DNA from: Actinacidiphila paucisporea
Lineage (GTDB): Bacteria; Actinomycetota; Actinomycetes; Streptomycetales; Streptomycetaceae
DNA: 64,000 nt
Direction: 5' to 3'
Assembly (NCBI RefSeq): GCF_900142575.1
Contig: NZ_FRBI01000011.1
Span: 62,001-126,000, forward strand
Shown: in pieces, positions 35,080-48,276 of the stretch
How positions within the stretch are numbered: the first letter of the stretch is position 1
Layout of the letters: each line of letters begins with the position of its first letter
The notes under the pieces: generated by a model
What the model was told of the DNA's origin: nothing
Seen by the model: only the letters and a program-made list of their open reading frames with translations
Database searches by the model: none
Position numbers and translations under genes: made by a program

Positions 35080-36711
35080 TCAGGTACGGGCCCGGCCCAG
35101 GTAGCCCCGCCAGCCGCCGTGCGCGGTGATGTCCTCGGCGCCGGCCAGCGCGGCGGGCTCGCACAGGAAGCCGGTCACCTCGGAGCCGTCGCGAAGCGTC
35201 ACCCGGCCCAGCGCCATCGGCCGGGGGAGCCCGGCCACCAGCGCGCCCAGCGCGGCGGGCGCCAGCTCCCACACCTCCGTCTCGATCGCGGCCCCGCCCT
35301 CCGCCACCCGCACCAGGCCCGGCTTGGGCGGCACCGTGTCCAGGGCGTGCAGCCGGTAGGCGGGCGCCGTCGCGGTCGTCGCCGCGAGGCGGGCGCCGAG
35401 CGCGAGCAGCTGCGGATTCAGCGGCTGGCCCGACAGGTGCGCGCCCACCACCGCGAGCCGCAGCGGTGGCTCCAGCAGTTCCGCGACCTGCGCGACGCGC
35501 TCGTCGCAGCCCGCCGCGCCGAGCAGCATCACCCCGAACGGCCGCCCCGCCACCTCGCCCGCCGGCACCGCGACCGCGCACAGGTCCAGCAGGTTCGCCG
35601 AGTTCGTGAAGCGCCCGAGCCGGGTGTTCGCGCCGACCGGGTCGGCGGCGACCTGAGCCGACGTCGGATGGCCCGGCGCGGTCGGCAGCAGCAGCGCGTC
35701 GGCGTCGCCCAGCTCCGCGGCCGCCCGCCGCCGCAGCACGGCCAGCCGCTCTCGGTCCGCGAACAGCCGGTGCGCCGGCAGGTCACGGGCCGCGCGGATG
35801 ATACGGGCCACGGTCGGATCGAGATCCGCGCCGCCGCGCTCCACGAACTCGCCCACGGCCGTGTAGCGCTCGGCGACGAAGGCGCCCTCGTAGAGCAGCG
35901 CGGCCGCCTCGCCGAACGGGGTCAGGTCGATCGTCCGCAGCTGGGCGCCGGCCCGCGCCAGCCGCTCCTGCGCGGCCTCGTAGGCCGCCGCCCAGCCGTC
36001 GTCCAGCTCGCCGAGCTGCGCGGTCGCCGCGACCGCGACCCGCCACGGCCCCGGGCGGCGCGGCGGCGGCACCGGGCTCGCCAGCAGCGCCAGGGCCCTG
36101 CGGGCCTCGGGCAGGGTGCGGGCGAAGACGCTCACGCAGTCCAGGCTCGCGCAGGCCGGCACGACGCCGTCCGTCGACACCAGGCCGCGGGTCGGCTTGA
36201 GCCCGACGATCCCGTTGAAGGCCGCGGGCACGCGGCCCGAGCCCGCGGTGTCCGTGCCCAGCGCCAGGTCCACGAAGCCCAGCGCCACGGCGACGGCCGA
36301 CCCGGAACTCGACCCGCCCGCCACCCTCTCCGGCGCCAGCGCGCTGCTCACCGGGCCGTAGGGGCTCCTGGTCCCGACCAGACCGGTCGCGAACTGGTCC
36401 ATGTTCGTCGTCCCGAGCACGATCGCACCCGCCGCGCGCAAGGCCGCCACGGCCGGGGCGTCGGCCGCCGGCTCGTACCCGTACGAGGGGCATCCCGCGG
36501 TGGTCGGCAGCCCCCGGACGTCGATGTTGCCCTTGACGCCCAGCAGCGTCCCGGCGAGCGGCAGCGCCTCCCCGGCCGCCACCCGGGCGTCGACGTCCTT
36601 CGCCTCGGCCCGCACCTCCTCCTCGGGCCGCAGCCCGATCCACACCTCCGGCCTTCCGGCCCGTTCGATCCCCTCGTACGCCGCCGTGACGCGGCGCTGT
36701 GCGTTGCCCAT
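35080..36711 (-). CDS. atzF: Allophanate hydrolase
   Basis: A 543-residue amidase-signature enzyme splitting allophanate into ammonia and carbon dioxide. The Ser-cisSer-Lys triad is visible: Lys60 in [10 protein letters not shown], serines 134-136 in AGGSSSGS, and nucleophile Ser158 in [16 protein letters not shown]. The C-terminal domain ([15 protein letters not shown] onward) is that of AtzF/DUR1. ATG 36711 is chosen because AAAGGGAG lies eight bases upstream; codons before it are intergenic repeat. It is the last step after the carboxylase and DUF1989 proteins encoded upstream on the same strand, but 291 bases of repeat separate it from the carboxylase. Confidence 0.93.
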
Positions 36712-36750
36712 ACGGTGGGCTCCCTTTCGTTGACACTTCCTACCCGCTGT

Positions 36751-36937
36751 GGCTGGTCGCGCAGTTCCCCGCGCCCCCCGGGTGGTTGCCCCTTGCGGTG
36801 GCGTTGCTTTCTTTCCCGCCCCGTCGGCTGGTCGCGCAGTTCCCCGCGCCCCTGAAAAACGCTCACCCTCCAGGGCCCAACGCCCGCCGCCGGAAGACCC
36901 GAGCCCCAAAGAGGCGCGGGGAACTGCGCGACCAGCC
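36751..36937. repeat. Composite intergenic repeat, copies 2 and 3 (inverted pair)
   Basis: The 25-bp module starting GGCTGGTCGCGCAGTTCCCC occurs at 36751-36775 and 36826-36850 and as its exact reverse complement at 36913-36937, so 36826-36937 can fold as a very long hairpin. GTTGCCCCTTGCGGTGGCGT at 36786-36805 is the reverse complement of the AAGCAACGC module of the copy at 20984-21113. It holds no gene and lies between atzF and the carboxylase gene. Confidence 0.8.
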
Positions 36938-37002: not shown

Positions 37003-40000
37003 CTAAGACGCACCGGAGGTGGGTGGTGGGGCCAGGGTCAGCAGGACCGTGCCGGGGGAGACCTGGTCGCCGGGGGTGACGTGGACGGAGGCGACGCGGC
37101 CGGCGACGGGGGCGGTCACCGGGGACTCCATCTTCATCGCCTCCAGGGTGAGGAGGTGCTGTCCGGCGGTCACCGTGTCGCCGGGGCGGACGGCGAGCCG
37201 CCAGACGCCGGCGGCGAATTCCGCCTCGACGGCGCAGCCGCCGGGAGGGACCGGGATCGTGGAACCCGCGGGGGCCGGCGCCGCGACGGCCTCGGCCCGG
37301 GCGAATTCCCCGGCCTCCTCCCACGCGGAGCGCTCCGCCGCGAAGGCGGACGCCTGCCGCCGGCGGAAGGACTCGATCGGCCCCGCGTTCTCCGCGAGGA
37401 AGCGCTGGTGCTCGGCGAGCGCGAAGTGCCCTTCCTCCACCCGCAGCTGCAGGCGCCCGGCGGCCATGTCGGCCCGCAGGTCGAGGAGTTCCTCCGCGCC
37501 GACCGGATACCACCGGATCCGGTCGAAGAACCGCAGCAGCCACGGCGGCTGCCGGTCCGCGGCCCGCCGCGACCAGACCTGCACGGTGCGGCCGACGAAC
37601 TGGTAGCCGCCCGGCCCCTCCATGCCGTAGATGCACAGGTACGCCCCGCCGATGCCGACGGAATTCTCCGCGGTCCAGGTGCGTGCCGGGTTGTACTTCG
37701 TCGTGACGAGCCGGTGCCGCGGGTCGAGCGGTGTGGCGACGGGTGCCCCCAAGTACACGTCGCCGAGGCCCAGCACGAGGTATTCCGCGTCGAAGACCGT
37801 GCGGTAGACGTCCTCGACGGAGTCGAGCCCGTTGACACGGCGGATGAACTCGATGTTCCACGGGCACCAGGGCGCGTCGTCGCGGACGCCGGCCATGTAG
37901 CGGGCGATGGCCTCCCGGGTCGCCGGGTCGTCCCAGGACAGCGGGAGGTGGACGGTGCGGCTGGGCACGACCAGCTCGTCGGTCGGCGGCAGCGCGTCCT
38001 CGGCCTCGCGGACCAGGTCGAGCAGTTTGGCCGTCGGCAGTTCGTCCGGGTCGACGTGGATCTGCAGCGAGCGGATGCCGGGCGTGAGGTCCACGACGCC
38101 GGGCAGCCGCTGCGCGGCGAGGTGTTCGGCGAGCGCGTGCACCCGCATCCGCAGCGCGAGGTCGAGTTGCATCGGGCCGTATTCGACCAGCAGGTTGTCG
38201 TCGCCGCTGCGCCGGTAGGTCACCGCGGGGCGGCCGGCGGTCGGTTCGGCGCGGCCCAATACGCCGCCGTCGCCCAGCACCGGCCGCGACGGCGCCGGGG
38301 GCGTCGCGGGGGACGACCGCAGCGCCGCGGCCGCGTCCTCAGTGACGGGCACGAAGCGTACGGTGTCGCCGGGCCGCAACTGGCCCAGCTTCCACCGCTG
38401 TCCGGTGACGACGGTGGCCGGGCAGACGAAGCCGCCCAGCGAGGGGCCGTCGGGGCCGAGCAGCACCGGCATGTCGCCGGTGTAGTCGACGGCCCCGACC
38501 GAATACGGCGTGTCGTGGATGTTGGAGGGGTGCAGGCCGGCCTCGCCGCCGTCGCCGCGGGCCCAGCGCGGCTTGGGTCCGACGAGCCGTACGCCGGTGC
38601 GGGCCGAGTTGAAGTGGACGCTCCACGCGGCGGCGTAGAAGTCCTCGATGTCGTCCTCGGTGAAGAACTCCGGTGCCGCGTGGGGCCCTTCGACCGCGCC
38701 GATCGCCCATTCGGTGCCGATCGCGGGGCGCAGCCCGACCGGTACCGGCCGCCCGTCCGCGGTGCCGCCACCGTGCAGGACGTCCGCGGCCCGCAGTGCC
38801 CGGCCGCCGTGCCCGCCGAAGCGGCCGAGCGTGAACGTGGCGGTGCTGCCGAGGAATTCGGGCACGTCGAGACCGCCGGCCAGCAGGACGTACGTGCGCA
38901 GGCCGGCCTCCTGCGGCGCACCGACGTCGAGCACCGCCCCGGCCGGCACGGTCACGGGTTCCCACTGCGGGACCGGCCGCCCGTCGACGGTGACCGGTGC
39001 GGGCGCCCCGGTCACGCAGACGGTGGTGGCGTGGCTGAACCGCAACGCCGGCCCCTGCAGGGTGCATTCGAGCCCGGCGGCCCCTTCGCCGTTGCCCAGC
39101 GCCTCGTTGCCGAGCCGGAAGGACAGGTCGTCCATCGGCCCGCACGGCGGCACTCCGACGTGCCACAGGCCGGTGCGGCCCGGCCAGTCCTGGACGGTGG
39201 TCATCGTGCCGGCGCGGACCACGTCGATCCGCCGCGAGCCGTCGCTGACAGCGTCCAGGGTGGCGGTGCTGTGGGTGGCGGCCCGCAGGTCGGGGTCGGT
39301 GAGAGCGGCCCGCAGCAGCCCGAGGTTGGTCTCGATGCCGTCGACGCGGGTCTCGGCCAGCGCGTCGGCGAGCCGGTCGAGTGCCTCGTCCCGGTCGGCG
39401 CCGTACGCGATGACCTTGGCGAGCATCGGGTCGTAGGAGGTGGTGACCTCGGTGCCGGTCTCGACCCAGGTGTCGACGCGCACGCCGGGCGGGAAGGCGA
39501 CCCGGGTGAGGACCCCGGCGCTCGGCCGGTGCCCGCGTGCCGGGTCCTCCGCGTAGATCCGCGCCTCGACGGCGTGCCCGGCGGGCTCGGGCGGTTCGCC
39601 CGGGCCCGTGCCGTCCATGGCGAGCCGCAGCATCCACTCGACCAGGTCGACGCCGTGCGTCTCCTCGGTGACCGGGTGCTCCACCTGGAGCCGGGTGTTG
39701 ACCTCCAGGAAGTAGGCCTCGGCGCGCTCCGCGTCGTAGACGAACTCGACCGTGCCCGCGGAGCGGTAGCCGACCGACGCGCACAAGGCCCGCGCGCTCT
39801 CGCCGAGTTGCCGCCGTACTGCCGCGGGCAGGCCGGGTGCGGGGGCCTCTTCGAGCACCTTCTGGTGGCGGCGCTGGAGCGAGCAGTCGCGGTCGCCGAG
39901 GGTCACGACCTTGCCGCGGCCGTCGCCGAAGACCTGCACCTCGACGTGCCGGGCGCGCTGCACCAGCCGTTCCAGGAAGACCCCGGCGGAGGAGAACCCG

Positions 40001-40569
40001 GCGGCCGCCGCGCGCTGCACCGGCTCCCAGGCGGCGGCCAGTTCGGCGGCCGAGTGGCAGGCGCGCATGCCGATGCCGCCACCGCCGCCAGTGGCCTTCA
40101 GCATCACCGGGTAGCCGAGCCGGCCGGCCGCGGCGAGCGCGGCGTCCAGGTCGGGGAGCAGCCCGGTGCCGGGCAGCAGGGGGACGCCGGCCGCCTCGGC
40201 GGCGGCCCGCGCGGTGTGCTTGGCGCCGAAGACGTCGAGATGCCGGGGCTCGGGGCCGACGAAGGCCAGGCCGGCGGCCTCGCAGCGGCGGGCGAAGCCC
40301 GCGTCCTCGGACAGGAACCCGTAGCCCGGGTGGATCGCCCCGGCGCCGGTGTCCGCGGCCGCGGCCAGCACCGCGTCGACGTCCAGGTAGCTGGACTTCG
40401 CCGGCGCCGGACCCAGCCGCACCGCGGTGTCGGCGAGATGGACGTGCGGGGCGCCGCGGTCGGGGTCGGAGAAGACGGCGACCGTCCGCAGGCCCATGCG
40501 CCCGGCGGTGCGGATGATCCGGGCGGCGATCTCGCCCCGGTTGGCGACCAGCAGCGTGTCGAAGGTCAT
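37003..40569 (-). CDS. Biotin-dependent guanidine/urea carboxylase
   Basis: A 1188-residue multidomain enzyme. Residues 1-445 are biotin carboxylase (LLVANRGEIAARIIRTAGR, KATGGGGGIGMRA, FLEVNTRLQVEHPVTEE). From about 446 is a KipA-like carboxyltransferase part (TTVQDWPGRTGLWHVGVPPC). From about 780 comes the KipI-like part, and the C terminus carries the biotin carrier with EAMKMES and biotinyl Lys1146. ATP-dependent carboxylation gives carboxyguanidine or allophanate. Its two DUF1989 neighbours favour guanidine over urea as substrate, since they are the carboxyguanidine deiminase partners in the known guanidine pathway. ATG 40569 overlaps the upstream stop by four bases. Confidence 0.9.
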   Translation of the reverse strand: MTFDTLLVANRGEIAARIIRTAGRMGLRTVAVFSDPDRGAPHVHLADTAVRLGPAPAKSSYLDVDAVLAAAADTGAGAIHPGYGFLSEDAGFARRCEAAGLAFVGPEPRHLDVFGAKHTARAAAEAAGVPLLPGTGLLPDLDAALAAAGRLGYPVMLKATGGGGGIGMRACHSAAELAAAWEPVQRAAAAGFSSAGVFLERLVQRARHVEVQVFGDGRGKVVTLGDRDCSLQRRHQKVLEEAPAPGLPAAVRRQLGESARALCASVGYRSAGTVEFVYDAERAEAYFLEVNTRLQVEHPVTEETHGVDLVEWMLRLAMDGTGPGEPPEPAGHAVEARIYAEDPARGHRPSAGVLTRVAFPPGVRVDTWVETGTEVTTSYDPMLAKVIAYGADRDEALDRLADALAETRVDGIETNLGLLRAALTDPDLRAATHSTATLDAVSDGSRRIDVVRAGTMTTVQDWPGRTGLWHVGVPPCGPMDDLSFRLGNEALGNGEGAAGLECTLQGPALRFSHATTVCVTGAPAPVTVDGRPVPQWEPVTVPAGAVLDVGAPQEAGLRTYVLLAGGLDVPEFLGSTATFTLGRFGGHGGRALRAADVLHGGGTADGRPVPVGLRPAIGTEWAIGAVEGPHAAPEFFTEDDIEDFYAAAWSVHFNSARTGVRLVGPKPRWARGDGGEAGLHPSNIHDTPYSVGAVDYTGDMPVLLGPDGPSLGGFVCPATVVTGQRWKLGQLRPGDTVRFVPVTEDAAAALRSSPATPPAPSRPVLGDGGVLGRAEPTAGRPAVTYRRSGDDNLLVEYGPMQLDLALRMRVHALAEHLAAQRLPGVVDLTPGIRSLQIHVDPDELPTAKLLDLVREAEDALPPTDELVVPSRTVHLPLSWDDPATREAIARYMAGVRDDAPWCPWNIEFIRRVNGLDSVEDVYRTVFDAEYLVLGLGDVYLGAPVATPLDPRHRLVTTKYNPARTWTAENSVGIGGAYLCIYGMEGPGGYQFVGRTVQVWSRRAADRQPPWLLRFFDRIRWYPVGAEELLDLRADMAAGRLQLRVEEGHFALAEHQRFLAENAGPIESFRRRQASAFAAERSAWEEAGEFARAEAVAAPAPAGSTIPVPPGGCAVEAEFAAGVWRLAVRPGDTVTAGQHLLTLEAMKMESPVTAPVAGRVASVHVTPGDQVSPGTVLLTLAPPPTSGAS

Positions 40570-41183
40570 CCGCGGGCCTCCGCAGCCTCGGGCGCGGTGA
40601 CCGTCATCCGTACCGGGGTCGGGTCGAAGCCGTTGCAGGGGTTGTTGATCTGCGGGCAGTTGGAGACCAGGACCAGTACGTCGGTCTCGGCCCGCAGGGT
40701 CACTTCGAGGCCGGGCGCGGAGCGGCCGTCCACGATGCCGAGGGTGCCGTCGTCCTCCACGGGGACGTTCATGTACCAGTTGACGTTGCTCACCAGGTCG
40801 CGCTTGCCGAGGCCCCAACGGGCGCCTTCGGCTAGGAAGTTGTCTACGCAGGCGTGCTGCGACCAGGTGTGGTGGCCGTAGCGGAGGGTGTTGGACTCCT
40901 TGGAGCAGGCGCCGGCGATGGTGTCGTGCCCGCCGCAGCCGTCGGCGACGACCGTCATCAGTGCCGTGTGCTCGTCGGACAGCAGCACGCTGCCGGCGGT
41001 CAGGAAGATGTTGCCCTGCGCCTGGATGGTGTCGGGGGCGCTGTAGCGCACGGCGGTGTCGTGGGCGTCGTAGACGAGGAAGTCCACCGCCTGGTTGCCG
41101 TGCAGGTCGGTGATGGTGAGCAGGCCTCCGGCCGGGATCACCGCGGACCAGGGCGCGCGTGCGGGTACGGTCGCGGTCGTCAT
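40566..41183 (-). CDS. DUF1989 protein (urea carboxylase-associated; probable carboxyguanidine deiminase subunit)
   Basis: A 205-residue protein of the DUF1989 family (PAGGLLTITDLHGNQAVDFL, GCGGHDTIAGACSKESN, VNWYMNVPVEDDGTLGIVDG, CPQINNPCNGFDPTP). Such proteins were long called urea carboxylase-associated proteins and have been shown in other bacteria to form carboxyguanidine deiminase, which turns carboxyguanidine into allophanate. The ATG overlaps the preceding gene by one base (TGATG) and the stop overlaps the carboxylase start, so the three are tightly coupled. Which of the two subunits it is cannot be told here. Confidence 0.85.
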   Translation of the reverse strand: MTTATVPARAPWSAVIPAGGLLTITDLHGNQAVDFLVYDAHDTAVRYSAPDTIQAQGNIFLTAGSVLLSDEHTALMTVVADGCGGHDTIAGACSKESNTLRYGHHTWSQHACVDNFLAEGARWGLGKRDLVSNVNWYMNVPVEDDGTLGIVDGRSAPGLEVTLRAETDVLVLVSNCPQINNPCNGFDPTPVRMTVTAPEAAEARG

Positions 41184-41977
41184 CACAGCCCCCTGGCGGT
41201 GAGGTGGTCGGCGGTGTTGGCGAACGCCCTGCCGCTCTCGGGCGTGGCGTCCCACAGCGGGTCCCCGGGGCCGGTCGGCGCGCCGGGCTTGGCCCGTACC
41301 TCCAACGGCCCGCACACGTAGGCCTCACGCGGGTCCAGCGGGTGCGGCACGTTCGCCAGCAGCACGGTCAGCGGCTGCTCGGCGCGCAGGGTCACCGCGG
41401 CTCCCGGCCCCGCGGAGCCGATGAACTCCAGCGAACCGTCGGTGTCGACCCGCACGCCCTGGAAGAACGACAGCGACGGTGGCAGGTCGCGCGGCTCCAA
41501 CCCCTGCTTGGCCCCGGCCAGTTTGAACAGCTCGCGCCCGGCGGGGGACGCGCCCTGCGGCGAACCGTCCCCGTAGCGCGCGGTGTTGCGCGCCGCCGAC
41601 GACGTACCGCACAGCGTGTCGTGCCGGCCGCTGGTGTCGGCGATCAGCGAGGCGAGCACCCGGCCCTGGTCGGACAGCAGCAGCCGGCCCGCGCCCAGGT
41701 AGGCGTTCCACTGCACCTTCACCGTGTCGGCGACGTTCAGCCGCTCCCACGGGCGGCCCTCGGCGAACAGCAGCAGATGCGCGCACGCGGTGCCGGTCGG
41801 GTCGGCGAGCCGCAACTCGGTGCCGCGGGCCAGCACCTTGTGCGTGTAGTTGCCGCCCGCCACCGTCTCGGCCCACACCAGCCCGTCGGGCGCCGGCACC
41901 AGCGGCATCGCGGCCGCCCGCTTGCCGCCCTGCGCCCGGGCATGGTCCCTGGCGCCGTACGTCGTCCCTGTCGCCAC
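41183..41977 (-). CDS. DUF1989 protein (second urea carboxylase-associated/carboxyguanidine deiminase subunit)
   Basis: A 264-residue paralogue of its neighbour. Shared features are RGTELRLADPTGTACAHLLL, GRHDTLCGTSSAARN and LSFFQGVRVDTDGSLEFIG; Cys and His in the HDTLCG region match the partner's HDTIAGAC. It should form a complex with that protein. It is the first gene of the leftward unit. GTG 41977 has GGGAGG seven bases upstream, and the operator 41990-42011 lies directly in front of that ribosome site. Confidence 0.85.
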   Translation of the reverse strand: MATGTTYGARDHARAQGGKRAAAMPLVPAPDGLVWAETVAGGNYTHKVLARGTELRLADPTGTACAHLLLFAEGRPWERLNVADTVKVQWNAYLGAGRLLLSDQGRVLASLIADTSGRHDTLCGTSSAARNTARYGDGSPQGASPAGRELFKLAGAKQGLEPRDLPPSLSFFQGVRVDTDGSLEFIGSAGPGAAVTLRAEQPLTVLLANVPHPLDPREAYVCGPLEVRAKPGAPTGPGDPLWDATPESGRAFANTADHLTARGL

Positions 41978-41989
41978 GGTGCACCTCCC

Positions 41990-42011
41990 ATTTCTGTCGT
42001 GCGACAGAAAT
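41990..42011. promoter_or_regulatory. TetR-type operator 1, in front of the carboxylase operon
   Basis: A perfect inverted repeat with 10-bp arms and 2-bp spacer, core CTGTCG-TG-CGACAG, flanked by TTAGG. On the minus strand TAATTT (42013 to 42008) is a likely -10 box and overlaps the distal arm, so a bound repressor would block the promoter. The same site recurs at 47258-47279. The divergent TetR gene starts 110 bases away and is the obvious candidate to bind it. Confidence 0.75.
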
Positions 42012-42120
42012 TAGGCGGCGGCGAATTCCGGTCCGTTGCCCGCGTGTTGCGCCCGGGTTACCGGCCGCTCACGGCCGCCGCCCCTGCTCGTACGGTCGGC
42101 CGCTGTGCGACGATCACGAG

Positions 42121-42732
42121 GTGACCATCAGCGGACGCCGTGTCGGACGGCCCAGGGCGCAGCCGCGGCCCGACAACGGGATGAGCCCCAAGCAGGAACT
42201 CCTCGCGGCGGCCGCCGAACTGTTCACCACCCGCGGCTACACCGCCACCACCACCCGGGCGGTCGCCGAACGCGCCGGGATGCGGCAGGCGTCGATGTAC
42301 CACTACGTCGGCGGCAAGGAGGACCTGCTCGCCGACCTGCTCGAAGGCACGGTGACCCCGTCCCTGGCCCTCGCCCGCGCCCTGCTGGCCGACCGGTCCC
42401 GCCCCGCCGAGCGCCGCCTGTGGGAACTGGCCGGCGCGGACGTCGAACTCCTCTGCGCAGGACCGTACAACCTCGGCGCCCTCTACCTCCTCCCCGAGGT
42501 GCGGGCCCCCCGCTTCGCCCCCTTCCGCGAGGCGCGCGCCGACCTCAAGTCGGCCTACGCCGCCCTGCTCGCCGCCACGTCGGCCGGCGCGGCCCTCCCC
42601 CCGGACGAGCTCGCCGTGCGCGCCGACCTGCTCTTCGCCCTGATCGAGGGCGTCATCCTCATCCCCCGCCCCCCGGCTCCGACGCTCGCCACCGCCACGG
42701 CCGACGCCGCCCTCCGCGTGGCCGGCTGCTGA
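42121..42732 (+). CDS. TetR-family repressor, probable regulator of the guanidine/urea regulon
   Basis: A 203-residue regulator. The N-terminal helix-turn-helix is LLAAAAELFTTRGYTATTTR followed by AVAERAGMRQASMYHYVGGK. The C-terminal ligand domain is divergent and unassigned. It is read divergently from the DUF1989-carboxylase operon. Shared palindromes in front of that operon and of the distant permease suggest it represses both and is released by guanidine, urea or a product. GTG 42121 has a poor ribosome site (ATCACGAG). Confidence 0.88.
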   Translation: MTISGRRVGRPRAQPRPDNGMSPKQELLAAAAELFTTRGYTATTTRAVAERAGMRQASMYHYVGGKEDLLADLLEGTVTPSLALARALLADRSRPAERRLWELAGADVELLCAGPYNLGALYLLPEVRAPRFAPFREARADLKSAYAALLAATSAGAALPPDELAVRADLLFALIEGVILIPRPPAPTLATATADAALRVAGC

Positions 42733-42887
42733 CCGCGCCCCTGCCGGGCCGCACGCGTGTTTCCCCGCACCTCGGGGTGCTCGGCTCTGCCGCGGGGACG
42801 GGCCACCAGGGCCGCGGGTGATCGACCAGCGCCGCCGACGCCGGGTATCGCGGCGAAGGCCTCGCCCTGAGGCAGGGCCACGCGTGT

Positions 42888-42916
42888 GGGAATCCCGACC
42901 ACGGGATCCCTTCTCC
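42888..42916 (+). terminator. Hairpin downstream of the TetR gene
   Basis: A nine-pair stem with one bulge (42888-42897 with 42902-42910), four-base loop, then TTCTCCT. It lies between convergent genes. Confidence 0.45.
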
Positions 42917-43122
42917 TACCGGTCAGTTCGGTCGGCTCGCTTCGTGATGAGCCGGAGCCTCGCCGGGTCGAGGGCCTTCCACTCACCCGGGCCACGCAGC
43001 GGACGGAGCAGGTACGTGCCGTCGCTGCGTACGTCGGAGAGGGTCGCGTTGCGCCCGGTGGCGGGGTCGTGGACCAGATCGCCGACCCACGGTCGCGCTG
43101 GTATGGATTCCTCGTGGGTCAC
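42916..43122 (-). CDS. Small protein of unknown function, coupled to the ATPase-like gene
   Basis: A 68-residue, basic protein (PWVGDLVHDPATGRNATLSD, GTYLLRPLRGPGEWKALDPA, LRLI). Small proteins of this kind accompany HATPase-type regulators in streptomycetes. The GTG start overlaps the upstream stop by four bases (43119-43122), showing translational coupling. Function unknown. Confidence 0.7.
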   Translation of the reverse strand: MTHEESIPARPWVGDLVHDPATGRNATLSDVRSDGTYLLRPLRGPGEWKALDPARLRLITKRADRTDR

Positions 43123-43538
43123 GCCGGCTCCCCGCTCTTCAGGACGCCCCACACCCGCTTGCCGAATGGCATCTCGTCGGTACCCCACTGCTCGGTCAGG
43201 ACCTCAACGAGCGCCAGGCCGCGTCCGCGTTCCGCGTATTCGTCCGCGTTTCGGCGTTCGGGGCGGATCGTTGAGCGGTCCACGACGTCGATGCGTACGA
43301 GGCCCGGTGTCGGGCGGCTGATGGACACCCGGATGAAGTGACCCGGGGTGTGTTGTGCGGCATTGGCGACCAGCTCTGTGACGACAAGGGCGCTGTCATC
43401 TTCCAAGCCCTCAAGTCCCCAGGCGCATAAAGCGATGCGCACCAGTTGCCGGGCCTTCTCGGCGCTCTCGACGGCGCACGGCAGAGTCTGCGTGTATCCG
43501 GGATGTCCTTGGGGATGTGCGACGGTGCTCACGGGCAT
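43119..43538 (-). CDS. HATPase_c anti-sigma-like ATP-binding protein
   Basis: A 139-residue single GHKL domain. N box ALVVTELVANAAQHT, G1 box RIDVVDRS and G2 box AERGRGLALVEVLTEQWG are present. This matches RsbW/SpoIIAB-like serine kinases or anti-sigma factors that are very numerous in streptomycetes. Codon 37 is TTA (43428-43430), so translation should need the bldA leucyl-tRNA. It heads a leftward two-gene unit divergent from an HTH-TPR regulator. Confidence 0.85.
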   Translation of the reverse strand: MPVSTVAHPQGHPGYTQTLPCAVESAEKARQLVRIALCAWGLEGLEDDSALVVTELVANAAQHTPGHFIRVSISRPTPGLVRIDVVDRSTIRPERRNADEYAERGRGLALVEVLTEQWGTDEMPFGKRVWGVLKSGEPA

Positions 43539-43677
43539 CAGGACCTCGGTCGGTATGGATGGGCCTGATCCAGTGAACGAGTCCTGACCTGTGCTGGGGA
43601 GGAAATATGGCTCCGGTCCGCAGTCGGCGCCACCGGAAATTCCGGTCGTTCGCTACTACGGAGGCGTACTGAATGGC

Positions 43678-43683
43678 TACTTT
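43678..43683 (+). promoter_or_regulatory. Possible leaderless -10 box of the HTH-TPR regulator
   Basis: TACTTT ends six bases before the GTG at 43690. If it is the -10 box, the mRNA is leaderless and the start is 43690 rather than the upstream GTG at 43591. Confidence 0.35.
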
Positions 43684-43689
43684 GGGTCA

Positions 43690-44958
43690 GTGGAGCCGAA
43701 CCGGGACCTCATCAGCGCCTTCGACGAGGCGGGCTTCACCCAGGCCGAGTTGGCCGAGGCGGTGAACGACTGGTTACGACGGCGCGGCCACGCGGGGACC
43801 GTCAGCGACCGGACCGTTCGGCACTGGCTGACCGGAAGGACCCGCTGGCCTCACCCACGTCAACGGGAGGCGTTGGGGGCAGTATTCGGTTGCGCTGCGG
43901 AGGAGTTGGGATTCAGCCCTCCGGCGAGGCCCCGCACTCCCGACGCATCCCCGGAGCCACCCGTGAGGCGACGCGACTTCATCACCGCAACCACCGGTAC
44001 GGCGGCGGCCGTCGCCACGCCGGGCATCGTGAGCCGGCCGCACCAGGTCGGCATCACCGATGTGGTTCGGCTCCGCACCGGCCTCGACGATCTGATGGCC
44101 CTCGACGACACCCGGGGCGGCCACGAGTCCCTTGAGCAGTCCGCTCTGTCCGGGGCGGCAGAGGCCCTGAGAATGCAGAGCCAGGCGGCCTCCCAGCGCA
44201 TCCGACGGCGGCTCTTCAGCGTGGCGGCCGACTTCACCGCCACGGCGGCCTGGTCCGCTCTGGACGCCCGGCACTCCGACCGTGCCGAGCAGCACCTCCA
44301 TCGGGCGCTGTATCTGGCAGGCATGGCCCAGGACTCGGTGGTCGAACTGAGGGTCTGGAATTCCTACGCGATGCTCGCGCATCAGCGTCAGCACTACGTC
44401 CACGCGGTGGACTCCGCCCAGGCCGCTCAGGCCACGGCAGTCGCCCGTAGGGACCCGCTGTTCGCGTCTCTGGCCCATGCCAGGACGGCCGTAGGACACT
44501 CGAACCTTGATGATCGGCAGGCGGCCCTGCGGTCTCTGGGGTACGCCCAGGAGGCTCTGGCGAAGGCCGACTCCACCCAGCCCCGTCCGAGCTGGATCGC
44601 CTTCTACGGCCTGGCTGAGCTGAACGCCGTCACCGCCATCGTCCGAGACCGGATCGGAGACCCGGCGGGGGCCGAAGCCGCCTCGCATCGGGCGCTCTCC
44701 GCGATCCCCGAGCATTTCCGCAGGAATCGGGCACTGGCAACCACGCGACTCGCGCTGTCGCAGCTCCACCAGCGGGAGGCTGACCTGGCCTGCGACACGG
44801 CGGCCTCCGCCTTCACCCTGATGACCGGTAGCCCGATCCCCGGCAGGATGAGGTCACTGCTCGGCGACTTTTACCGCGACTTGATCACCCTGGCGCCGAA
44901 GTCCCCGACCGCGCGAGAGTGGGGCGACCGCTACCGACTCGAATGGAGGCGTGCATGA
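43690..44958 (+). CDS. HTH-TPR transcriptional regulator with internal twin-arginine-like segment
   Basis: A 422-residue protein. The N-terminal helix-turn-helix reads FDEAGFTQAELAEAVNDW and SDRTVRHWLTGRTRWP. A short segment RRRDFITATTGTAAAVATPG looks like a Tat signal but is internal. The rest is helical with TPR-like repeats (AEQHLHRALYLAGMAQDSV, AVDSAQAAQATAVARRD). TTA at 43774-43776 suggests bldA dependence. The start is uncertain: GTG 43690 matches the usual VEPNRDL opening of this family, while GTG 43591 would add 33 residues. It overlaps the GNAT gene by four bases. Confidence 0.8.
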   Translation: MEPNRDLISAFDEAGFTQAELAEAVNDWLRRRGHAGTVSDRTVRHWLTGRTRWPHPRQREALGAVFGCAAEELGFSPPARPRTPDASPEPPVRRRDFITATTGTAAAVATPGIVSRPHQVGITDVVRLRTGLDDLMALDDTRGGHESLEQSALSGAAEALRMQSQAASQRIRRRLFSVAADFTATAAWSALDARHSDRAEQHLHRALYLAGMAQDSVVELRVWNSYAMLAHQRQHYVHAVDSAQAAQATAVARRDPLFASLAHARTAVGHSNLDDRQAALRSLGYAQEALAKADSTQPRPSWIAFYGLAELNAVTAIVRDRIGDPAGAEAASHRALSAIPEHFRRNRALATTRLALSQLHQREADLACDTAASAFTLMTGSPIPGRMRSLLGDFYRDLITLAPKSPTAREWGDRYRLEWRRA

Positions 44959-45479
44959 CGACCCCCATCCTCGACGTGCGTCATTACACCCACGACGACC
45001 TGGCATTGATACGGCAGACGATCCTCGACATCCATGCCGACGCCTACGCGGAGAACATGACCGAGTTCGATGAACGGTTCCCCTGGTTCGTGGACCACTG
45101 GGGCGGCAACCCCGGCTTCGCCTGCGTGATCGCGTATGACGGGGAGCAGGCGGTCGGCTTCGCGTACGGAGCCCCGGCGACCCCTGGGCGTGAGTGGTGG
45201 CGCGAGCACCTCGACCCCGCGCCGGAAAAGCAACGGACGTTCTCGTACTCCGAGCTGGCCGTCCACCCGTACTGGCGGAAGAAGGGCGTCGCAGACCGCC
45301 TCTCCCGCGTACTGATGGACGGTCGGGACGAAGACTTGGCGGTGCTGCTTGTGGACGTCGAGCACCCCCGGGTCCAGGCCCTGTACGAGTCCTGGGGGTA
45401 TCGGAAGGTCGGCGAGCGTCAACCGTTCCCCGACTCACCGGTGTACGCCGTGATGCTGGTCGAGCTGCCGTTGCCGTGA
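44955..45479 (+). CDS. GNAT-family N-acetyltransferase
   Basis: A 174-residue acyltransferase. The acetyl-CoA motif A is YSELAVHPYWRKKGVADRLS, followed by LLVDVEHPRVQALYESWGYR. The substrate is unknown. ATG 44955 overlaps the regulator's stop (ATGA) and has GGAGG five bases upstream, so it is translated with the regulator. Streptomycetes often pair such regulators with a GNAT gene. Confidence 0.85.
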   Translation: MTTPILDVRHYTHDDLALIRQTILDIHADAYAENMTEFDERFPWFVDHWGGNPGFACVIAYDGEQAVGFAYGAPATPGREWWREHLDPAPEKQRTFSYSELAVHPYWRKKGVADRLSRVLMDGRDEDLAVLLVDVEHPRVQALYESWGYRKVGERQPFPDSPVYAVMLVELPLP

Positions 45480-45594
45480 TTGCTGCCATGCGGCTCACGC
45501 GGCGACCGCCGGTACGTGCTTCGCCCTGGCGCGCTTCGCCGTTTCGGCCGGGGTGCGGCTGGACTTCGAAAACGGCCGCCTGATCCGGCGTCGA

Positions 45595-45630
45595 CGTGGT
45601 CCCGGGTCCGGAAGAGGATCCGGGACCACG
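45595..45630. terminator. Bidirectional terminator between GNAT and permease genes
   Basis: A 15-bp stem with one wobble pair (45595-45609 with 45616-45630) and six-base loop, between convergent genes. The remaining bases of 45480-45688 show no recognisable gene. Confidence 0.6.
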
Positions 45631-45688
45631 CGGACAAGCTGCCCGCCGCGGCGAAGTGGACAACGAGCGGGTGTCCGCGAAGCAGGCG

Positions 45689-47236
45689 CTACGGCGTCGG
45701 CGACGCGACCGCCGATGGCGCCGCCTCCTGCGAGGCCGAGCGCCCTCGCAGCGCCCGCCAGGAGAAGCCCGCCACCAGTGCCGCGCCCAGGAAGAGCAGG
45801 GTGAACCACTGGAAGTACCAGTGCGTGCCCGAGGGGTCGTACACCGCGGCGCGGGGCCAGGCGAGGTTGACGGTCATCACCAGGCCGTAGAGGAGGGCGG
45901 CCGCGTTGACCGGGACGCCCCAGCGGCCGAGGGAGAAGACGGGGGCGCCGGACTCGTCCGTCGCGGGGGGAAGGGGCGCGCGCAGGCGGCGGAGCAGGAG
46001 CGGGCCGGTGACCATGGAGTAGGCGAGGTAGAGCATCACGATGCAGGTGGTGCCGATGGCCAGCCACGCCTCGGGCGAGGCGAAGGCGATCAGCAGCAGC
46101 GCCGCGGACAGCACGCCGACGGCCAGGGCGGGGGCGTAGGGCTGGCCGGTGCGGGGGGAGACGCGGGAGAGGGTCGGGGAGAAGGGGAGCGCGCGGTCGC
46201 GGGCCATGGAGAAGAGCATCCGGGTCGCCGACGTCTGGATCGCCAGGGTGGCGACCGCGACCGCGACGGCCACGTCGCAGAGCAGGGCGCGCCCGACGCC
46301 GCTGCCGAGCCGGCTGGTGAGCACGTAGGACAGGCCGTCCGTGCCGAGCCGGCCGTCGGTCAGGCTGGGGGCGGCCAGCAGCGCGGCCAGCACGAGCAGG
46401 GAGGCCAGCAGGCCGGCCGCGGTCAGGGCGGTGAGGATGGTGCGCGGGGCGACCCGCCGCGGGTGGCGGGTCTCCTCGCTCATCTCGCCGGCGCTGTCGA
46501 AGCCGATCATGACGTAGGCCGCGGCGAACGAGCCGACCAGCAGGGCCGATCCGCCGCCCCCGGTGTGCACGGTGACCGCGGGGGAGCGGTCGGCGTGGGT
46601 GAACAGCAGCACGATGATGAGGACGGCGCCGGCGATCTCCGCGGTCACGCCGATCCGGTTGACCAGCGACATGACCTTGTTGTCCAGCAGGTTCACCACC
46701 GTGGTGAGCACCAGCAGCACGATGCCGAGCAGTGCCGCGTTGGCCGCGCCGTCCGAGGAGACCGGTGAGGTGTCGGTGCCGATCAGCTGGAAGCCGGACC
46801 AGACCGCGGGCAGCACCACCTGGAGCGCCAGCGCCGCCGCGGCGACGACCACGATCTGGCCGAGCACCATGATCCAGCCGGCGTACCAGCCGAAGACGGC
46901 GTTGCTGAGCCGGCTGGACCACTGGTAGATGGCCCCCGAGATCGGGTAGCGGGCGGCGAGTTCGGCGAAGCACGCGGCGACCAGCAGCTGGCCGATCAGG
47001 ACGGCGGGCCAGGTCCAGAAGAAGCGCGGGCCGCCGAAGGAGTAGCCGAAGGCGAAGAACTGGAAGACGGTGGTCAGCACCGAGATGAAGGAGAAGCCGG
47101 CCGCGAAGGACGCGTAGCGGCCGAGGCTGCGGTGCAGTTCCTGGCGGTAGCCGAAGTCCGCGAGTCCCGCGGTGTCCTCGGTGCCGTGCTGGTCCGGCGG
47201 TTGCGAACGGGCGTCCGATGGTGCGGTGGCGGTCAT
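45689..47236 (-). CDS. APC-superfamily permease, probable guanidine/urea uptake
   Basis: A 515-residue membrane protein with about twelve helices. The first part, FGYRQELHRSLGRYASFAAG and FAFGYSFGGPRFFWTWP, is typical of the amino acid/choline permease group, and SEETRHPRRVAPRTI is the conserved cytoplasmic loop. Permeases of this group are often linked to urea carboxylase operons. It lies 5 kb from the carboxylase genes but shares their 22-bp operator and flanking TTAGG, which ties it to that pathway. ATG 47236 sits 22 bases from the operator. Confidence 0.88.
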   Translation of the reverse strand: MTATAPSDARSQPPDQHGTEDTAGLADFGYRQELHRSLGRYASFAAGFSFISVLTTVFQFFAFGYSFGGPRFFWTWPAVLIGQLLVAACFAELAARYPISGAIYQWSSRLSNAVFGWYAGWIMVLGQIVVVAAAALALQVVLPAVWSGFQLIGTDTSPVSSDGAANAALLGIVLLVLTTVVNLLDNKVMSLVNRIGVTAEIAGAVLIIVLLFTHADRSPAVTVHTGGGGSALLVGSFAAAYVMIGFDSAGEMSEETRHPRRVAPRTILTALTAAGLLASLLVLAALLAAPSLTDGRLGTDGLSYVLTSRLGSGVGRALLCDVAVAVAVATLAIQTSATRMLFSMARDRALPFSPTLSRVSPRTGQPYAPALAVGVLSAALLLIAFASPEAWLAIGTTCIVMLYLAYSMVTGPLLLRRLRAPLPPATDESGAPVFSLGRWGVPVNAAALLYGLVMTVNLAWPRAAVYDPSGTHWYFQWFTLLFLGAALVAGFSWRALRGRSASQEAAPSAVASPTP

Positions 47237-47257
47237 GGGCCGGCCCCTTAGGTCGGT

Positions 47258-47279
47258 ATTCCTGTCGATCGACAGAAAT
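47258..47279. promoter_or_regulatory. TetR-type operator 2, in front of the permease gene
   Basis: The same palindrome as at 41990-42011, core CTGTCG-AT-CGACAG, with one mismatch in the 10-bp arms and identical flanking AAATTAGG. TAATTT on the minus strand (47281 to 47276) is again the likely -10 box, with TTCGAC 16 bases upstream of it as a possible -35. It indicates shared control with the carboxylase operon. Confidence 0.75.
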
Positions 47280-47416
47280 TAGGGAGCCGGTGTTTCAGTC
47301 GAATGACGTGACCGTGTCCGGCACGGGCCGAAGTGCTCACGTGGCCCGTACGGCCTCCCTGCTTGCCCTTACGTCCCCGCGGCCCCTCGCGTGCGCTGTA
47401 CGCTGGCGCCGAAATT

Positions 47417-47430
47417 CGCGATACATCGCG
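47417..47430. promoter_or_regulatory. Palindrome upstream of the PadR gene
   Basis: CGCGAT-AC-ATCGCG is a perfect 6-2-6 palindrome, about 70 bases before the PadR start, with a related GCGATATG at 47451. TACGGT at 47473-47478 may be the -10 box. A PadR autoregulatory site is possible. Confidence 0.35.
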
Positions 47431-47502
47431 GTTGCCTGATTCCCGCAAACGCGATATGTTCGGCTACGGATATACGGTAGCGAGCATGGCGAGGTGAGAA
47501 CG

Positions 47503-48276
47503 ATGGCGGCACGGCGCAAACTCTCCAACCCGCTGGCCCTGGCGGTCATGGTGCTGCTCGCCGAGCGCCCGATGCACCCGTACGAGATGGCCCGGGTGAT
47601 GCGGCAGCGCGGCAAGGAGCACAGCATCAAGATCAACTACGGCTCGCTCTACACCGTGGTCCAGAACCTGGAGAAGCACGGCTTCGTGACCGTCGCCGAC
47701 GTCCAGCGGCAGGGCAACCGCCCCGAGCGCACCCTCTACGGGCTCACCGAGGAGGGCCGCGTCGAGATGCACGACTGGCTCGCCGACACGGTCGCCGTAC
47801 CGGCCAGGGAGTATCCGGCGTTCGAGGCCGGGCTGTCGCTGATCGCGGCCCTGCACCCGGACGAGGCCGTGGAGTTGCTCACCGAACGGATCGCCGCCGT
47901 GAAGGTCCAGGCCGCCGCCTTCCGCGGGGTGCTGGCCAAGCTCGGCGAGGAACTGCCGCGGCTGTTCCTGCTGGAGACCGACTACAAGGCCCGCATGCTC
48001 GAAGCGCAGGCGGACTGGATCCGCGAACTGCTCGCCGAGATCGCCGCGGGCGAGCTGACCGGCGCCGGGGAATGGCGCAGCTGGCACGAGACCGGCGCCA
48101 TGCCGGACGGGTGGTCGGAGCTGGAGGAGCAGTTCCGCGACCTCGACGCGGCGGACGCGAGGGGCGCCATGAGCCCGGCGGGTGCCTCGCACGCGGCGCC
48201 CGGCGCCCAGGGCACGCGCGCGCCCCGGTCCGGGACCCCTGCCGCCGAGAGGGAGCGCCCCGACGACACCACCTGA
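47503..48276 (+). CDS. PadR-family transcriptional regulator
   Basis: A 257-residue regulator. The N-terminal winged helix reads LALAVMVLLAERPMHPYEMA, NYGSLYTVVQNLEKHGFV and TLYGLTEEGR. A C-terminal helical dimerisation domain follows, with a long Ala/Pro-rich tail of about 45 residues. PadR proteins next to drug-type ABC exporters usually repress them in response to the toxic substrate. ATG 47503 is chosen because GAGGTGA lies five bases upstream; GTG 47494 is in frame. Confidence 0.9.
   Translation: MAARRKLSNPLALAVMVLLAERPMHPYEMARVMRQRGKEHSIKINYGSLYTVVQNLEKHGFVTVADVQRQGNRPERTLYGLTEEGRVEMHDWLADTVAVPAREYPAFEAGLSLIAALHPDEAVELLTERIAAVKVQAAAFRGVLAKLGEELPRLFLLETDYKARMLEAQADWIRELLAEIAAGELTGAGEWRSWHETGAMPDGWSELEEQFRDLDAADARGAMSPAGASHAAPGAQGTRAPRSGTPAAERERPDDTT

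Follow-up and report, generated by a model that had tools for sequence, protein, structure and literature searches.

The window analysed here, 64,000 nucleotides of contig NZ_FRBI01000011.1 from the actinobacterium Actinacidiphila paucisporea, carries a predicted guanidine-breakdown operon and a permease gene, each preceded by a palindrome that we assign as a predicted operator of the TetR-family repressor AmtR. The operon, a single minus-strand run of genes for two DUF1989 subunits, a carboxylase and an allophanate hydrolase, lies opposite a divergent TetR-type gene. A preliminary description of this DNA had placed a 22-bp inverted repeat before the operon, a second copy with one arm mismatch before an APC permease, TAATTT on the minus strand over the distal arm of each, and the divergent TetR gene beside the first site, and the sequence agrees on all four counts. 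In order along the window, the features are as follows.

35080 to 36855, minus strand: allophanate hydrolase, start codon uncertain (TIGR02713, 667.9 bits, cut-off 511.05).
37003 to 40569, minus strand: biotin-dependent urea/guanidine carboxylase, predicted guanidine carboxylase (TIGR02712, 1803.2 bits; D695 and D937).
40566 to 41183, minus strand: CgdB, equivalent to UAAP2 (DUF1989), predicted carboxyguanidine deiminase subunit (TIGR03424, 321 bits, cut-off 284.7).
41183 to 41977, minus strand: CgdA, equivalent to UAAP1 (DUF1989), predicted carboxyguanidine deiminase subunit, named by family (TIGR03425, 296.6 bits, cut-off 205.95).
41990 to 42011, no strand: predicted AmtR operator 1, a perfect 22-bp inverted repeat, ATTTCTGTCGTGCGACAGAAAT, with a TTAGG flank.
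42008 to 42013, minus strand: putative -10 element TAATTT of the operon promoter, overlapping the distal arm of operator 1 (TAATTT in 27 of 28 aligned promoters, TACTTT in the other).
42024 to 42061, minus strand: predicted tandem GlnR boxes of the operon promoter, GTAAC-n6-GCAAC-n6-GCAAC-n6-GAATT, at -49, -38, -27 and -16 from the operator (28 promoters).
42121 to 42732, plus strand: predicted TetR-family repressor AmtR, 203 amino acids (best phmmer match 5e57, Mycobacterium smegmatis AmtR, E=6.6e-42; the fold matches).
45689 to 47236, minus strand: APC-superfamily permease of the urea/guanidine carboxylase system (TIGR03428, 633.7 bits, below the cut-off of 740.45; homologues follow guanidine-I riboswitches).
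47258 to 47279, no strand: predicted AmtR operator 2, ATTCCTGTCGATCGACAGAAAT, with one arm mismatch and a TTAGG flank.
47276 to 47281, minus strand: putative -10 element TAATTT of the permease promoter, overlapping the distal arm of operator 2 (TAATTT in 23 of 25 aligned promoters).
47292 to 47329, minus strand: predicted GlnR half-sites of the permease promoter, GACAC, GTCAT and GAAAC, the fourth, at -49, being GGCCC, which does not fit (23 promoters).

The pairing of the operators is real and lies far above chance. Operator 1 stands 12 nt from the start codon of the first operon gene and operator 2 stands 21 nt from the permease start. In a genome of 8,162,603 bases (78 contigs), a search for the 22-mer that allowed three mismatches hit operators 1 and 2 and nothing else, and its reversed control gave no hit, against 0.013 matches expected by chance from a base-composition estimate; there is thus no crowd of unrelated copies. 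The 14-bp core, CTGTCGNNCGACAG, also occurs genome-wide only at the two operators, although the reversed control of this short core matched three times, so that the core alone is weak evidence. Both sites contain the non-corynebacterial form of the AmtR box, CTGTC-n4-GACAG inside a 22-bp palindrome, with outer arms unlike those of the quoted AmtR consensus.

To follow the operator in relatives, we used 35 genomes of the genus, 296 genomes of the class and a named, CgdA-based scan of 80 loci (G and L numbers are labels for genomes and loci), the last comprising 19 Streptomycetaceae loci, 57 alphaproteobacterial loci and four from other actinobacteria; six of the 19 are the same DNA as genus loci and 13 are not among them. 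In the genus, the operator (up to three mismatches) and CgdA occur in the identical 18 of 35 genomes, with AmtR in those 18 plus G008 (19 in all), so the operator tracks the genes (p 2e-10) and is absent from no relative having the first operon gene (18 of 18). Seventeen genus genomes, the window's and 16 others, have both the permease and a complete operon region, and all of them carry one site at each (in G032 on separate contigs); 35 of the 39 genus sites lie at the operon or the permease, the other four being in G010 and G013. A strict two-site rule nevertheless fails: exactly two sites occur in 15 of the 18 operator-bearing genomes (the window's among them), four each in G010 and G013, and one in G022. 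The G022 locus (L064) is decayed, with a permease fragment and a permease site at four mismatches; its operon operator is kept, and carboxylase and hydrolase matches are absent from the fetched region. The arm mismatch of operator 2 is itself fixed: 23 of the 25 aligned permease sites carry it, among them all 17 from the genus, and none of the 28 operon sites does.

The association extends to the class, where CgdA was found in 25 genomes, AmtR in 28 and both in 23 (Fisher p 2.6e-27); G193 and G274 are CgdA-negative at the class-search threshold yet have CgdA in their fetched AmtR regions. Among the 24 CgdA-bearing class genomes besides the window's, 17 have the exact CTGTC-n4-GACAG core by the operon, the permease or AmtR, and four have it with one mismatch, cases that are weak because one-mismatch matches to so short a core also arise by chance within genes. 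The remaining three lack it; G147 and G226 are also without an AmtR match, and G315 has AmtR. In the named scan, the exact core precedes CgdA in all 19 Streptomycetaceae loci and in none of the 57 alphaproteobacterial loci, in which AmtR was not found either; the four other actinobacterial loci gave mixed results. When the -10 element was included in the pattern (up to two mismatches), it matched just two places in each of the eight other CgdA-bearing Streptomycetaceae of the class sample, with all control columns at 0, and only one of the 16 genomes hit (G140, by a two-mismatch match) was without an AmtR match.

By sequence and predicted fold, the divergent TetR-type protein is AmtR. The match to Corynebacterium glutamicum AmtR has an E value of about 1e-26, and an AlphaFold2 model built from 30 sequences (mean predicted local distance difference test score, pLDDT, 91.5) returned AmtR chains at ranks 1 to 14 of a Foldseek comparison with the PDB. 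The DNA-contacting residues Gln53, Ser55 and Tyr57 of C. glutamicum AmtR are retained as Q56, S58 and Y60 (RQASMYHY in the window, RQASLYYH in C. glutamicum), with H and Y opposite Y58 and H59. In four loci from one genus of another family (L123, L125, L127, L128), two CTGTC-n4-GACAG boxes lie upstream of amtR itself, an arrangement that fits autoregulation.

Alignment of promoters on the operator (28 operon and 25 permease promoters, with L105 and L106 dropped as shifted to leave 23 permease promoters for the half-site analysis) revealed a second conserved element just upstream. Operon promoters have GTAAC in 28 of 28 and majority GcAAC, GCAAy and GAAnC at the other half-sites, with 11-bp spacing, and permease promoters have majority GACAy, GTCAT and GAAAC, the first half-site being off-pattern. 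At the operon, mean column identity falls from 0.904 in the half-sites to 0.633 in the spacers and 0.484 in the sequence beyond them; the corresponding values at the permease are 0.917, 0.715 and 0.434. The a-b-a-b pattern quoted for GlnR, gTnAc-n6-GaAAc-n6-GtnAC-n6-GAAAc (PMC10704036), is matched at the operon promoter by four half-sites in which GCAAC takes the place of GaAAc or GTnAC of the consensus; at the permease promoter three of the four half-sites fit it roughly, and the one at -49 does not. In M. smegmatis, GlnR is reported to bind the promoter of the homologous permease by chromatin immunoprecipitation sequencing and gel shift (PMC3662644). Since GlnR-type half-sites are conserved immediately before both operators, two inputs probably act on the switch, activation by GlnR and repression by AmtR, and the regulon is probably not governed by AmtR alone. 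The control by a TetR-type operator that the preliminary description proposed is therefore upheld as to the shared operator but incomplete, since the regulator is the known AmtR, with a published site and targets elsewhere, and since GlnR-type half-sites are conserved upstream. Blocks started one unit further upstream (-60) score slightly higher (0.948 at the operon, 0.920 at the permease), and so the array may be longer than four units. TGAG is nearly invariant at -59 to -56, at the same distance in operon and permease promoters, and could be a further half-site or something else.

If TAATTT is the -10 element, transcription starts inside the operator, and with 12 nt from operator to start codon the operon leader would be some 20-30 nt, too short for a riboswitch. 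No Rfam family reached threshold in the window, and a guanidine-I search of the whole genome found none, guanidine-II, III and IV being covered by the Rfam scans only. Nor did any Rfam family reach threshold in the 24 class CgdA loci (3.6-3.8 kb) and two longer ones, which extend 1.5 kb beyond CgdA and do not reach the permease promoter in loci where the permease gene comes first. The Rfam positive control, on seven of the 80 named loci (long CgdA loci), returned tRNA only and so failed; positives come from the direct guanidine-I search. Among CgdA-bearing class genomes, that search gave only one weak match, in G234, on another contig. Riboswitch control of the operon is thus rejected, and control without the usual guanidine riboswitch, as first proposed, is borne out within those searches.

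Related genes do stand behind guanidine-I riboswitches elsewhere. In the actinobacteria G049, G056 and G119, two DUF1989 genes and a carboxylase follow such a riboswitch, with the permease in front in two of them, and the class search found no AmtR match in these three genomes. Only a permease was found behind the riboswitch of G310, and only a permease (partial match) behind a below-cut-off riboswitch in G241. AmtR also occurs in three of the 24 genomes with a guanidine-I match, and in none of the three did the riboswitch locus match the operon or permease genes.

The carboxylase itself points to guanidine rather than urea. Guanidine carboxylases are distinguished from urea carboxylases by Asp at the position of Kluyveromyces lactis residue 1330, besides Asp at 1584 (PMC11410670). 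In the printed alignment with the K. lactis urea amidolyase 5i8i, D695 of the window protein aligns with N1330 and D937, by hand count, lies opposite 1584, so that the window carboxylase has both residues expected of a guanidine carboxylase. The 695 position is Asp in all 16 genus carboxylases, all 24 class carboxylases and all 76 readable ones of the named scan, some genes having been fetched twice. The substrate is most likely guanidine, and AmtR, long tied to urea, may really serve guanidine.

From the sites, their rarity and conservation, the identity of AmtR, the half-sites and the carboxylase residues, all computed here, we infer a scheme of binding, repression, activation, in vivo substrate and inducer that we consider very likely as a whole. 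AmtR would bind each palindrome, where it would cover the -10 region and the probable start site of that promoter, and would repress both the operon (CgdA, CgdB, guanidine carboxylase and allophanate hydrolase) and the APC permease. GlnR, the actinobacterial nitrogen regulator, would bind the upstream half-sites and activate both promoters under nitrogen limitation. As output, guanidine would be taken up and degraded to ammonia and CO2. Release of AmtR may be brought about by guanidine or a downstream intermediate (carboxyguanidine or allophanate), a ligand at which we can only guess.

Several findings sit uneasily with this scheme. At the thresholds used, AmtR occurs without CgdA in G008 of the genus and in G177, G083 and G324 of the class; G315 and the Amycolatopsis locus L172 have AmtR and the operon with no upstream site at up to one mismatch; the Cellulomonas locus L173 has the exact core and no AmtR in its locus; and the outer arms read ATTT in the window versus TAt in the quoted AmtR consensus. 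As to the substrate, the 76 readable carboxylases from the CgdA-based scan offer no Asn contrast, since each has Asp, the sole Asn seen being that of K. lactis, and the riboswitch-led carboxylases of L236-L238, the loci of G049, G056 and G119, have Met, neither Asp nor Asn, at the D695 position. A universal Asp rule is weakened by these last three, which lie behind a guanidine-I riboswitch. In L073 (from G008) and L122 (from G177), where the genome searches gave AmtR without CgdA, the fetched region has no operator.

What relieves repression bears on the first alternative, in which AmtR senses nitrogen status rather than substrate and is released by the PII protein GlnK, as is reported for C. 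glutamicum AmtR, whose family fold the window protein shares. We regard this as rather unlikely. Nitrogen control in M. smegmatis is described as intact without AmtR and dependent on GlnR (PMC4222082), which would make a second nitrogen-status input redundant, and the GlnR-type boxes would already supply that input in the window. A comparison of 69 AmtR sequences (63 distinct, window included) also argues against it, in that position 126 is acidic in all of them and Ile in C. glutamicum AmtR. Beyond the DNA-binding domain, acidic residues are near-invariant at D107 (69 of 69), E126 (68 Glu and one Asp) and E176 (69 of 69); C. glutamicum AmtR has Glu at the 107 position, and 176 is outside the part compared. 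These three residues could hold the inducer, and carboxylates would suit the guanidinium ion.

A second alternative keeps the operators and AmtR but has the pathway serve urea, which we consider quite improbable. In its favour, NCBIfam calls the enzyme urea carboxylase (1803 bits), Jessberger 2013 lists a putative urea carboxylase and a GlnR review ties AmtR to urea metabolism. In M. smegmatis, however, urea at 0.5-5 mM is reported not to release AmtR (PMC4222082). The specificity position of the window carboxylase is Asp, not Asn, and related CgdAB-carboxylase operons and homologous permeases follow guanidine-I riboswitches. The operon moreover holds two DUF1989 deiminase-type genes for which we know of no use in urea carboxylation. 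That the palindromes are chance matches or the sites of another regulator is scarcely credible, numerous as TetR-family genes are in such genomes, given the 0.013 matches expected and none in the control, the tracking of the genes in 35 genus genomes (p 2e-10) and the lack of the exact core before CgdA in all 57 alphaproteobacterial loci.

Returning to guanidine, it is possible, and we propose it tentatively, that outside Corynebacterium AmtR is a protein that senses guanidine (or carboxyguanidine or allophanate), doing by repressor what the guanidine-I riboswitch does in related actinobacteria. If so, no guanidine-responsive transcription factor would have been known before AmtR, and what has been published as AmtR-urea regulons would be regulons for guanidine in which the true inducer had never been put to the test; the compounds reported as tried on M. 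smegmatis AmtR are urea and amino acids, neither of which affected its binding (PMC4222082). A 2025 review names riboswitches as the only known guanidine receptors besides transporters and enzymes, and allows that regulatory proteins may yet turn up (PMC12186494). AmtR would be a named candidate: its structures are solved, its operators are known and its targets resemble guanidine catabolism. The literature searched, outside which most subscription papers fall, yielded no link between AmtR and guanidine and, among the titles listed, no guanidine-sensing protein; an earlier link is therefore possible.

Other actinobacteria are already reported to have AmtR boxes with this core and to place these genes under AmtR; what is added here is a promoter with two probable inputs and a new reading of the AmtR regulon, as one for guanidine. 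The AmtR gene set has been described in ten actinobacteria including Streptomyces avermitilis (PMC4222082), where AmtR (sav6701) accompanies the same set as in the window (urea carboxylase sav6698, amidase sav6697, permease sav6709), with AmtR opposite to the operon and the permease elsewhere. The 22-bp consensus given for S. avermitilis and others, TAtCTGTCa-n2-cGACAGATAT (PMC8864220, citing Chen et al. 2013), has the same core as the window sites. The window differs in belonging to another genus and in its ATTT outer arms, and its GlnR half-sites and guanidine reading go beyond the accounts of S. avermitilis AmtR consulted. Chen and colleagues are said to have found S. avermitilis AmtR binding at both intergenic sites.

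The closest structural counterpart is M. smegmatis AmtR (msmeg_4300), the best PDB match, 47-48% identical to the window protein in the fold alignment, whose targets in msmeg_2184-2189 correspond to those in the window. It is reported to bind upstream of the permease gene in gel shifts and to repress the set, with GlnR above it (PMC4222082) and acting on the same promoter, but its gene is unlinked and autoregulated, whereas in the window amtR is divergent from the operon and operator 1 stands in the gap between them. C. glutamicum AmtR shares the fold and the core-contacting Gln, Ser and Tyr, and differs in its box (CTAT-N6-ATAG), a reported regulon of at least 35 genes, release by GlnK and the use of AmtR in place of GlnR. 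Guanidine-I riboswitch utilisation operons have the same enzyme set as the window and, in several cases, an APC permease; in the window a predicted repressor and operator take the place of the RNA.

The proposal of a local regulon stood in that one TetR-family operator is common to operon and permease, but 'local' proved accidental: in G216, AmtR lies 1.15 Mb from the operon and both operators stay with their genes, which rules out the strict form. Spacing varies as well: five genus relatives (G006, G014, G017, G027, G030) have the two operators about 2.5 kb from each other, compared with 5.3 kb in the window, the difference being due to extra genes between AmtR and the permease. This gap (43119-45479) holds genes for an NsdA-family regulator and, judged by eye, for a small ATPase-like protein and a GNAT-like acetyltransferase (the last with a weak rimI match), and given the shorter spacing in those relatives these genes look like an insertion.

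The four extra sites in the two relatives G010 and G013 (L056:3210, L060:4962, L057:4879, L061:4841) retain most of the module, GlnR-type half-sites included. Their neighbours are an NCS1 permease, with the sites upstream of it, and a cytosine-deaminase-like gene, as well as paired amidohydrolase and creatininase genes (TIGR04448, 264.8 bits, cut-off 235) and an allantoicase. Since AmtR of C. glutamicum is reported to control creatinine and creatine genes too, guanidino compounds appear, by analogy, to recur as AmtR targets. In L057 and L061, the module faces the allantoicase, with the amidohydrolase behind it, and is antisense to an XRE-cupin regulator. Finally, palindromic TATCGCG-type repeats lie at about 47400-47475 of the window, upstream of a PadR-like gene (47494-48276), and recur upstream of the permeases of several relatives; they are possibly PadR operators.

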